Shown: one piece after another, positions 4,061 to 56,673 of the stretch
Layout of the letters: each line of letters begins with the position of its first letter
How positions within the stretch are numbered: position 1 is the stretch's first letter
Origin: Candidatus Gastranaerophilales bacterium
GTDB taxonomy: Bacteria; Cyanobacteriota; Vampirovibrionia; Gastranaerophilales; Gastranaerophilaceae
Direction: 5' to 3'
Assembly: GCA_944322975.1 (NCBI GenBank)
Contig: CALUQS010000018.1
Location: forward strand, 1 to 60,505
DNA: 60,505 bases
The notes under the pieces: model-generated
What the model was told of the DNA's origin: nothing
The model's database searches: none
Seen by the model: only the letters and a program-made list of their open reading frames with translations
Made by a program: the position numbers and the translations under genes

Positions 4061-5389
4061 ATGAAAATATGCGTTATAGGAACAGGTTACGTGGGTCTGG
4101 TTGCGGGCACATGCCTGGCTGAGATGGGCAATGACGTTATCTGCGTCGACAAAGACACAGACAAACTCGCCAAGTTAGAACAGGGAATTATCCCGATATA
4201 CGAACCCGGATTAGAAGAACTCATTAAAGTTAATGTTTCTGAAAACAGATTGTCCTTCACAAACGACCTTGATTCTGCCGTAAAAAAATCGCTGGTTTGC
4301 TTTATTGCAGTAGGAACCCCTCAGGGCGAAGACGGTTCTGCTGACTTGCAGTATGTTTATGATGTAGCAAAATCAATCGGAAAAGCTTTAAACGGCTATA
4401 AAGTTATAATCGACAAGTCCACTGTCCCTGTCGGCACAGCAGAAAAAGTTACAGAGATAATCAAATCTCAAACAAACGAAGAATTTGATGTTGTCTCTAA
4501 CCCTGAGTTTTTAAAACAGGGCGCCGCTGTTGACGATTTTCTAAAACCGGACAGAGTTGTTATCGGCTCAAACTCTCACAGAGCAACAGAAATCATGCAG
4601 GAACTTTACGCACCGTTTTTGAGAACAGGCAACCCCGTTATTATCATGGACGTTAAGTCGGCAGAAATGACAAAATATGCGGCTAATTCCTTCTTGGCTG
4701 TAAAAATTTCTTACGCCAACGAAATCGCTAATATTTGCGAAAAAGTAGGCGCTGACGCTGAAATGGTAAGAATCGGCATGTGCGCCGACAAACGTATCGG
4801 CTCACAGTTCTTATTCCCCGGGCTTGGATATGGCGGAAGCTGTTTTCCTAAAGACGTTAAAGCATTGTTAAAAACAGCTAAAGACTTTGGCTGCGACTAC
4901 CAGCTTTTAGAATCTGCAGACAAGGTTAACAAACTGCAAAGACAAATATTTATTGACAAAATCATTAAACGTTTCGGCGAAAACCTGTCAGGCAAAACAT
5001 TTGCAATATGGGGCCTCGCTTTTAAACCCAAAACAAATGATATGAGAGAAGCACCTGCTATCACTATCATCAACGCCCTTTTACAAAGAGGAGCAAAGGT
5101 TCAGGCATATGACCCGAAAGCCTTTGATTGCGCGGAAATGATTTTCGGCAGCAAGATAACTTACGCAAAATCAGCATACGACGCACTTAAAGAAGCCGAT
5201 GCTCTCTTGCTTTTAACAGAATGGAACGAATTCAGACGTCCGGACTTTGACAGAATCAAAGACCTGTTAAAAACACCTGTTATCTTCGACGGAAGAAATC
5301 AATATGACGCCAAAAGGCTTATTCAAAGAGGTTTTGAATACACATGCGTCGGGAAAAACACAAACAGCAAACATCCGGTGTGCTGTTAA
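4061..5389 (+). CDS. ugd: UDP-glucose 6-dehydrogenase
   Basis: 442 aa, normal length. It oxidises UDP-glucose to UDP-glucuronate with two NAD+. GTGYVGL at 7-13 binds NAD, NPEFLKQG at 148-155 and K205/N209 line the active site, and C261 in GGSCFPKD is the catalytic cysteine. The C-terminal UDP-binding domain includes WGLAFKPKTNDMREAP. RBS CAGGAG lies before ATG 4061. It ends the surface-polysaccharide cluster and probably supplies uronic acid precursors for capsule or LPS. A strong terminator follows directly. Confidence 0.96.
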   Translation: MKICVIGTGYVGLVAGTCLAEMGNDVICVDKDTDKLAKLEQGIIPIYEPGLEELIKVNVSENRLSFTNDLDSAVKKSLVCFIAVGTPQGEDGSADLQYVYDVAKSIGKALNGYKVIIDKSTVPVGTAEKVTEIIKSQTNEEFDVVSNPEFLKQGAAVDDFLKPDRVVIGSNSHRATEIMQELYAPFLRTGNPVIIMDVKSAEMTKYAANSFLAVKISYANEIANICEKVGADAEMVRIGMCADKRIGSQFLFPGLGYGGSCFPKDVKALLKTAKDFGCDYQLLESADKVNKLQRQIFIDKIIKRFGENLSGKTFAIWGLAFKPKTNDMREAPAITIINALLQRGAKVQAYDPKAFDCAEMIFGSKITYAKSAYDALKEADALLLLTEWNEFRRPDFDRIKDLLKTPVIFDGRNQYDAKRLIQRGFEYTCVGKNTNSKHPVCC

Positions 5390-55745: not shown

Positions 55746-55767
55746 TTACTTTAAAATCAGCCTTACT

Positions 55768-55812
55768 ACACAAATATTACACAAAAAATAAAAAGCACGC
55801 CCAAGAACTCTG
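55768..55812. repeat. Left copy of a 45-bp imperfect direct repeat
   Basis: ACACAAATATTACACAAAAA followed by ATAAAAA, a CGCCC core and ACTCTG. The second copy is at 56171-56216. The pair encloses about 360 bp of hairpins. Confidence 0.75.
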
Positions 55813-55856
55813 TTTGAAAGTTGACTAAATGTCAAGTTTTGAATGGAGGAAAGTAC

Positions 55857-55910
55857 ATGGGGGCTACCTCTCAGAAACAATACTTAATTGTTTCTTCGGC
55901 AGAGTCGTAA
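55857..55910 (+). CDS. Possible 17-codon ORF over the first hairpin
   Basis: ATG 55857 follows GGAGGAAAGTAC, a strong RBS. The frame reads MGATSQKQYLIVSSAES and stops. It lies exactly over hairpin unit A, so it may be a leader peptide, a gene remnant or chance. Confidence 0.25.
   Translation: MGATSQKQYLIVSSAES
55864..55906 (-). repeat. Hairpin unit A of the CTCTGCC/GAGAGGTAG family
   Basis: CTACCTCTC, stem AGAAACAAT-ACTTA-ATTGTTTCT, TC, GGCAGAGT. Read on the minus strand it gives ACTCTGCCG-stem-GAGAGGTAG. Confidence 0.8.
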
Positions 55911-55933
55911 AATGCTAGACTCGGCGCCACTCG

Positions 55934-55977
55934 CTACCTCTCGTAAATATGCCGCCGGCATATTTACCCGGCAGAGT
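55934..55977 (-). repeat. Hairpin unit B of the same family
   Basis: CTACCTCTC, stem GTAAATATGCC-GCC-GGCATATTTAC, CC, GGCAGAGT. Same flanks as unit A with a different, fully paired 11-bp stem. Confidence 0.8.
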
Positions 55978-56004
55978 GTGTACCACTCCTAGCCTGAGAT
56001 AAGA

Positions 56005-56042
56005 ACTCTAAAAAATGATTAAGTATCATTTTTTAGAGGTAG
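56005..56042 (+). repeat. Hairpin unit E, variant of the same family
   Basis: ACTCT, stem AAAAAATGAT-TAAGT-ATCATTTTTT, AGAGGTAG. The GCCG internal loop is missing, so the CTCT/AGAG flank extends the stem directly. Confidence 0.65.
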
Positions 56043-56049
56043 GCTAAGA

Positions 56050-56066
56050 GAAAAACGAAGTTTTTC
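56050..56066. repeat. Short perfect hairpin in the cluster
   Basis: GAAAAAC-GAA-GTTTTTC. It lacks the family flanks. Confidence 0.5.
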
Positions 56067-56105
56067 CGTGCCGTATAAAATTTACGAGCCATACATATCA
56101 GGATG

Positions 56106-56142
56106 CCCTTCGAGTACAAGCGAGGTCCCACTCAGACATATT
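56106..56142. repeat. 36-bp dispersed repeat, copy 1
   Basis: Contains GTACAAGCGAGGTC, then CACTCAGACATAT. The second copy is at 60291-60326 with few differences. Confidence 0.75.
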
Positions 56143-56170
56143 TTTGACTGATTACACAAACTTGCCGATT

Positions 56171-56216
56171 ACACAAATATTACACAAAAAAATAAAAAAC
56201 GCGCCCGGAGACTCTG
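56171..56216. repeat. Right copy of the 45-bp direct repeat
   Basis: Matches 55768-55812 (ACACAAATATTACACAAAAA and following) and runs into the first 132-bp unit. Confidence 0.75.
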
Positions 56217-56463
56217 CCGAGCAAAACAATCCTGTGAATTGTTTTGCGAGAGGTAGAACCCCCGTATTTTGCGACAGCAAAATATTGGGGTGCGAATCCC
56301 TTATTCTGACAATTTATAGAAAGCAAGAAAACGCGCCCGGAGACTCTGCCGAGCAAAACAATCCTGTGAATTGTTTTGCGAGAGGTAGAACCCCCGTATT
56401 TTGCGACAGCAAAATATTGGGGTTCGAATCCCTTATTCTGACAATTTATAGAAAGCAAGAAAA

Positions 56464-56464
<1 letters not shown>
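56201..56464. repeat. Two tandem 132-bp units carrying tRNA-Arg-derived ends and hairpins
   Basis: Units 56201-56332 and 56333-56464 differ at one visible base (56292 G versus 56424 T). Each starts with GCGCCCGGAG, the complement of the tRNA-Arg 3' end, then a hairpin unit (56211-56256 and 56343-56388; stem GCAAAACAAT-N7-ATTGTTTTGC between ACTCTGCCG and GAGAGGTAG), then AACCCCCG. A second imperfect hairpin follows, then GGGGTTCGAATCCC (exact in the second unit), the inverse of the T-arm. The long frame across it (56144-56638) is not a gene. Confidence 0.85.
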
Positions 56465-56537
<73 letters not shown>

Positions 56538-56550
56538 ATTATTTAATTGT

Positions 56551-56627
56551 CACTTGCGCGTTTGGTAGCCAAACTTTATTGGAATCCGCAAGCTTAACGC
56601 TTGCTTTGTCAACCGGGCTACGGGCGC
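56551..56627 (-). pseudogene. Degenerate tRNA-Arg copy
   Basis: On the minus strand it begins GCGCCCGTAGCCCGGTTG, matching the tRNA-Arg 5' end. A GCAAGC-TTAAC-GCTTGC hairpin interrupts it. An anticodon-arm-like GTTTGGCTACCAAAC follows with three loop bases missing (loop GAA lost). The 3' half is not recognisable. Confidence 0.65.
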
Positions 56628-56673
56628 ATCTGTTTTGAATTATATAATATAAATATTTTTTATCAAGCATATA

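Follow-up and report, generated by a model that had tools for sequence, protein, structure and literature searches.

A family of short hairpins in the genome of a Candidatus Gastranaerophilales bacterium is probably a non-autonomous palindromic mobile DNA element of ~41–48 bp, present only in Gastranaerophilales, which replaces a specific hexamer and is moved in trans by a putative enzyme. At every resolvable site the unit stands, in one orientation, in place of GGANTC(G) or of GNAGYG, a consensus drawn up after the cases had been seen (GTAGCG, GCAGCG, GCAGTG, GGAGTG and GAAGTG). The sites are the D-arm (plus strand) and the T-arm (minus strand) of partial tRNA copies around an intact tRNA, and two positions in a modular repeat of ~340 nt. 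Hairpin and hexamer are alternative states of one site; the target word sets the orientation, and the pairing of the stem is conserved. The family has the appearance of a mobile element whose target rule is precise and unusual.

The window, i.e. the whole stretch of 60,505 nt that was analysed, holds four units and a variant where a first-pass annotation had placed them, as re-reading of the sequence bore out (the first unit is given here as 55864–55905). The features are as follows.

55850–56138, minus strand: copy of the ~340-nt modular repeat, class B, rearranged; the low boundary is approximate
55864–55905, minus strand: hairpin unit at site 2 of the ~340-nt repeat, standing in place of GAAGTG
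55934–55977, minus strand: hairpin unit at site 1 of the ~340-nt repeat, standing in place of GGAGTG
56005–56042, plus strand: hairpin of related form, ACTCT-stem-AGAGGTAG, with no GCCG; it is part of a nested module within the larger repeat
56196–56327, minus strand: 132-nt tandem unit 2 behind tRNA-Arg
56211–56256, plus strand: hairpin unit in the T-arm of a 3'-partial tRNA-Arg copy, replacing GGATTC(G) on the reverse strand
56328–56459, minus strand: 132-nt tandem unit 1 behind tRNA-Arg, laid out as tandem unit 2
56343–56388, plus strand: hairpin unit in the second tandem 3'-partial tRNA-Arg copy, replacing GGATTC(G) on the reverse strand
56463–56538, minus strand: intact tRNA-Arg(ACG) (ARAGORN, Rfam)
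56540–56630, minus strand: 5'-partial copy of tRNA-Arg, lying upstream of the intact gene; its D-arm region holds a different hairpin, AAGCAAGCG..AGCTTGC

The copy of the ~340-nt repeat has its 5' end, TGTCTGAGTGG, at ~56138; after unit 2 the 3' module that normally follows is absent or replaced. The hairpin at 56005–56042, counted earlier as a variant of the family, is indeed present, but it has no GCCG and is part of a different module of the larger repeat. Each 132-nt tandem unit runs in the order spacer, inverted T-arm, hairpin, GGGGGTTC, hairpin unit and tRNA 3' end. As the two hairpin units at 56211–56256 and 56343–56388 lie in the two halves of a tandem duplication (132 nt each, 99% identical), they represent a single event. 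The possibility that the tRNA-like flanks of this 132-nt repeat form a complete tRNA-like gene was also considered; it was rejected, with ARAGORN and Rfam giving tRNA-Arg alone. A direct repeat, TACACAAATATTACACAAAAAATAAAA, occurs at 55767–55794 and 56170–56197, 403 nt apart, and brackets the entire hairpin region.

In G000, the genome of the window, which is 85% complete (113 contigs, 1.78 Mb), the pattern ACTCTGCCG-N10-40-GAGAGGTAG has 18 exact copies, on both strands; the reversed control pattern has no match there. A slightly shorter pattern is present in 42 of 146 related genomes. Within the genus it occurs in 21 of 23 genomes (that of the window included), with up to 51 copies; in further families of the same order it is sparse, and 36 genomes from elsewhere in the class gave no match. 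In a scan of genome contigs, the matches listed were mostly Candidatus Gastranaerophilales records or gut bacteria, and those listed in Prevotella, Planctomyces, Gammaproteobacteria, Akkermansiaceae and others have no paired stem. The one off-taxon match with a paired stem lies in a record labelled Heliobacteriaceae (L228), which may be a misnamed MAG. A phage origin was considered and rejected: none of 11 pattern matches in viral contigs has a paired stem. No convincing member was found outside Gastranaerophilales-type genomes in the collections scanned by pattern, and the family is restricted to this lineage as far as these collections show. It should be noted that members were found by a fixed-flank pattern search, which may miss diverged ones, and that the invariance of the flanks is partly by construction, because the copies were chosen by them. 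A literature search on Gastranaerophilales repeats, tRNA-inserted palindromes and Melainabacteria transposases returned nothing relevant. In a deer rumen MAG (L216:3045-3090 and 4890-4935), units are flanked by CACTAAGG and CTTAGTG and nested in a larger palindrome.

The first-pass annotation had described stems that differ completely and still pair, and had made this observation depend on further copies with paired stems. Both are borne out by the 18 copies and their covarying stems, the family being multi-copy, strongly covarying and lineage-restricted. The stems of 72 distinct units contain 723 Watson–Crick pairs and 125 mismatches, whereas shuffles have 363 and 347, respectively. In 31 distinct ungapped units of 47 nt, the covariation score is 0.367; shuffles give 0.110 (sd 0.015), and sliding the partner strand never lifts the score above 0.117. 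Both sides change at 9 of 12 stem pairs in these units, and 80 double-change cells are seen versus 23 in shuffles; compensatory base changes, the mark of a structured hairpin, are thereby present. A few hairpin tips recur, namely GACTAAATGTC, ATCCWGTGAAT, GCCNGTGGC and ATTAAGTAT. One site can carry different tips in different genomes: at the tRNA-Arg locus, G000, G012 and G010 differ from G019 in the hairpin tip and share the outer stem and the junctions. Other genomes have other modules at this locus, and in G005 it is empty. The earlier proposal that CTCT/AGAG in the flanks extends the stem stands in so far as these bases can pair; however, CTGCC/GGTAG pairs equally, and covariation cannot choose between the two, because both arms are invariant in the pattern-selected copies.

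Where the units sit is more telling, and here the first-pass annotation was incomplete: it had overlooked the most informative features, namely the association with tRNA genes, the hexamer that is targeted and the host repeat of ~340 nt. Of the 30 tRNAs in the genome of the window, 17 have a partial self-copy within 300 nt (score 12 or more); when each tRNA was compared with the flanks of other tRNAs, such a copy was seen in 2.6% of these cross pairs. Pieces on the 5' side always hold the 5' end of the tRNA and those on the 3' side its 3' end; an inverted D- or T-arm is often present as well. Among 126 units collected from the genus and family, 52 have an intact tRNA gene within 400 nt. Of the 22 on the 5' side, 21 point the same way as the tRNA, and of the 30 on the 3' side, 29 point the opposite way, so that orientation is fixed in 50 of the 52 (p ~6e-13, or ~2e-10 with tandem arrays counted once). 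As to the two exceptions, the flanks are those of another, cut-off tRNA in G016 and are also tRNA-like in G009. The replaced words are GTAGCG, GCAGCG and GCAGTG in the D-arm and, on the other strand, GGATTC(G) and GGAGTC(G) in the T-arm; their length is 6 nt in 17 of 18 resolved cases on the D side and 7 nt in 26 of 27 on the T side (6 if the shared terminal G is assigned to the unit). No tRNA-side unit was seen in an anticodon arm. Since the hexamer belongs to the tRNA sequence itself, it is the earlier of the two states in the tRNA pieces. Sorted by context, 51 of the 126 units lie in tRNA pieces, ~51–52 in ~340-nt repeats and 7 in a repeat of G067; ~16, at contig ends or next to tRNAs that escaped detection, have flanks of tRNA-like or repeat sequence, and the context of one, in G032, is ambiguous.

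The ~340-nt repeat, with TGTCTGAGTGGGACCTCGC at its 5' end and TTATCGGGGTCAGTTGACTATATGAAAT at its 3' end, is modular, with nested modules, and the genome of the window has dozens of copies, whole or partial. The repeat has two fixed positions for a unit. Site 1 reads GTGGTACAC|GGAGTG|CGAGT when unfilled (12 contexts) and carries many different hairpins when filled; site 2 reads TTTTACG|GAAGTG|ACCCC (14 contexts) and is filled by three hairpins. These empty words are of the same type as the D-arm words, GNAGYG, and the unfilled copies of the repeat are empty sites independent of tRNA genes. Behind one conserved gene, read at 20 orthologous loci, the repeat is present in the genome of the window only and absent from the 19 other loci of the genus; it is therefore a recent arrival there. 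Differences in insertion were seen only between species, none between closely related strains. The repeat also stands at contig ends in the genome of the window (C95, C96, C30, C42, C102 and C107); since the assembly breaks at it, its copy numbers are underestimates.

Of the options raised in the first-pass annotation, i.e. a structured RNA family, a REP/MITE-like element or a transposase or recombinase substrate, the mobile-DNA or recombinase-substrate side is favoured, because a hexamer is exchanged exactly for a hairpin at tRNA arms and at the two repeat sites; structured RNA is less favoured, and a RAYT partner finds no support. The unit would be inserted at the DNA level, probably as a folded single strand, by a putative trans-acting enzyme that would both recognise and remove the hexamer. 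Stem pairing would be kept since the folded hairpin is the presumed substrate of this enzyme, and tips may be exchanged since they would themselves serve as insertion points. Insertions in tRNA genes would survive solely in partial duplicates, since an intact copy is needed; these duplicates would be made before or together with the insertion. The tRNA duplications may, however, stem from another process, because partial copies also exist with other modules. It is only a tentative proposal that a DNA-level system, which swaps GNAGYG or GGANTC(G) for a hairpin in one orientation, has specialised on tRNA D- and T-arms and is coupled to a partial tRNA duplication that keeps an intact copy. To our knowledge, an insertion mode in which the target word is consumed and a palindrome delivered matches no transposition chemistry described so far, and we know of no MITE or IS200/IS605 element that behaves by losing a target hexamer.

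Four other explanations have to be weighed. It is unlikely, though deserving of serious attention, that the units are structured RNA: the hairpin would be one domain of a non-coding or regulatory transcript (the ~340-nt repeat, as a BOX-like element), pairing would be kept for RNA function, and the copies beside tRNAs would serve in the processing or termination of tRNA transcripts. Such a terminating role would suit the tRNA-Arg of the window, whose trailer has, by eye, no obvious terminator of its own before the unit. It does not suit the 3' units at tRNA Met, Phe and Leu and at the tRNA-Arg of G009, which, also by eye, lie beyond a terminator-like hairpin and T-run. The ~340-nt repeat folds far better than its shuffles (z −9.6) and the stems show compensatory changes, both as expected of a functional RNA, and the larger repeat may itself have such a role; however, the units are patchy among congeners and absent from orthologous loci, and the exact exchange of a hexamer is unexpected for an RNA domain. 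Further, an Rfam search, at the gathering threshold and at E up to 1, matched tRNA alone and gave no covariance-model match, and hence no family, for the units.

That the units are REP sequences mobilised by a RAYT (TnpA-REP) transposase, the partner suggested in the first-pass annotation, is improbable. The units do have GTAG at one end of the palindrome, but 3' of it rather than 5', the complementary strand having CTAC 5'. RAYT genes (PF01797, Y1_Tnp, ~178 aa) were found in 5 of the 13 genus genomes searched; none was found in the genome of the window (85% complete), and the number of units does not differ with RAYT presence (Mann–Whitney p 0.88, 13 genomes). In G012 and G002, a RAYT lies beside or inside such units, in the former between two copies of the ~340-nt repeat. 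Each RAYT is, however, preceded (and in two cases also followed) by GTAGGTTGGG..CCCAAC or GTCGGTTGGGC..GCCCAAC, and this REP of its own, GTAGGTTGGGC..GCCCAAC or GTCG variants, is a palindrome distinct from the units. The G002 gene (L081:1357-1887) has its own GTAG-REP on both sides and sits in the loop of a hairpin unit behind tRNA-Phe copies, an example of hairpin-tip insertion. The RAYT is thus a neighbour and an invader of the units. Some RAYT ORFs (L083:1725-1760; inside the ORF of L079 and L080) contain their own REP in inverted form, GTTGGGCAGGTACGCCTAGCCGAC, translated as ..GQV.., and in G009 the RAYT ORF ends soon after such a copy.

A third explanation dispenses with a mobile element: template switching at tRNA-derived inverted repeats would make or remake perfect stems by palindrome-copying mutation. 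Direct and inverted tRNA pieces beside at least 17 of 30 tRNAs, the tandem arrays and the exchange of tips at one site are in keeping with it, but we consider it highly improbable, as such a process would not supply the ACTCTGCCG and GAGAGGTAG flanks, the few tips that recur at unrelated loci or a replaced word that is always of one type. Finally, tRNA-gene T-loops are common integration sites and the partial 3' tRNA copies look like attR, but the units can hardly be integrase att-site remnants of islands or phages, given that 5' ends and D-arms are used equally, that units of ~100 nt have no integrase or cargo, and that viral contigs yield only unpaired chance matches.

A mobile palindrome that replaces a hexamer thus remains the preferred reading, and its relation to known elements can be stated. 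The units work like REPs or MITEs in being short, palindromic and dispersed, with no gene of their own, and they fit the broad kind of a palindromic mobile repeat, with many copies, conserved ends and filled and empty sites. Classical membership fails, because GTAG is on the wrong side, a cognate RAYT with the same palindrome is missing and target duplication is absent: 6–7 target bases are lost, and none is duplicated directly at the unit ends as in the short target-site duplication of a MITE.

REPs and REPINs with RAYT are GTAG- and CGTC-tagged palindromes (PMC3733652, PMC2817692, PMC8266576), some families of which occur in Cyanobacteria. The units resemble them as lineage-specific families of short palindromes with many intergenic copies, GTAG at one end and probable movement in trans. 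Unlike REPs, they have GTAG on the 3' side and almost wholly variable stems, replace a hexamer, lack a cognate RAYT and cluster at tRNA arms and within one repeat. The ~340-nt host repeat is modular, structured and intergenic like the BOX elements of Streptococcus pneumoniae (PMC3049150), but is unrelated to them in sequence and has hairpins nested at fixed hexamer sites. The CGTC-tagged Rickettsia palindromic elements (PMC3733652) are likewise small palindromes invading genes in an AT-rich lineage; these go into reading frames, whereas the units go into tRNA copies and repeats. The nearest analogue in behaviour is the double-hairpin or repetitive hairpin-forming elements of fungal and sponge mitochondria, which conserve their shape while their sequence changes and are regarded as mobile (PMC2800124). 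They belong to an organelle, and the part of the source consulted reports no hexamer or tRNA-arm rule for them.

If the hexamer-for-hairpin rule reflects a real insertion reaction, a putative enzyme consumes its target word and delivers a palindrome, tRNA genes are its preferred landing place and partial tRNA duplication is the price. This would account for the broken self-copies at most tRNA genes of this gut lineage, and the units offer a testable case of how short palindromic repeats can spread with no transposase next to them, a question that also arises for REPs and organellar hairpin elements.

Other modules were seen in similar places. A second module family (CTTTAGATTTAAA-like, with an inverted D-arm) occurs in 5'-partial tRNA copies (L120, L121, L123, L128, L132 and L146, among others), and 3'-partial copies with other modules were found at L118, L129, L137 and L139. 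G067, from another genus (L184-L190), has a repeat of its own in which a unit follows GAGTGGC in at least seven places, often with a similar hairpin start adjoining.
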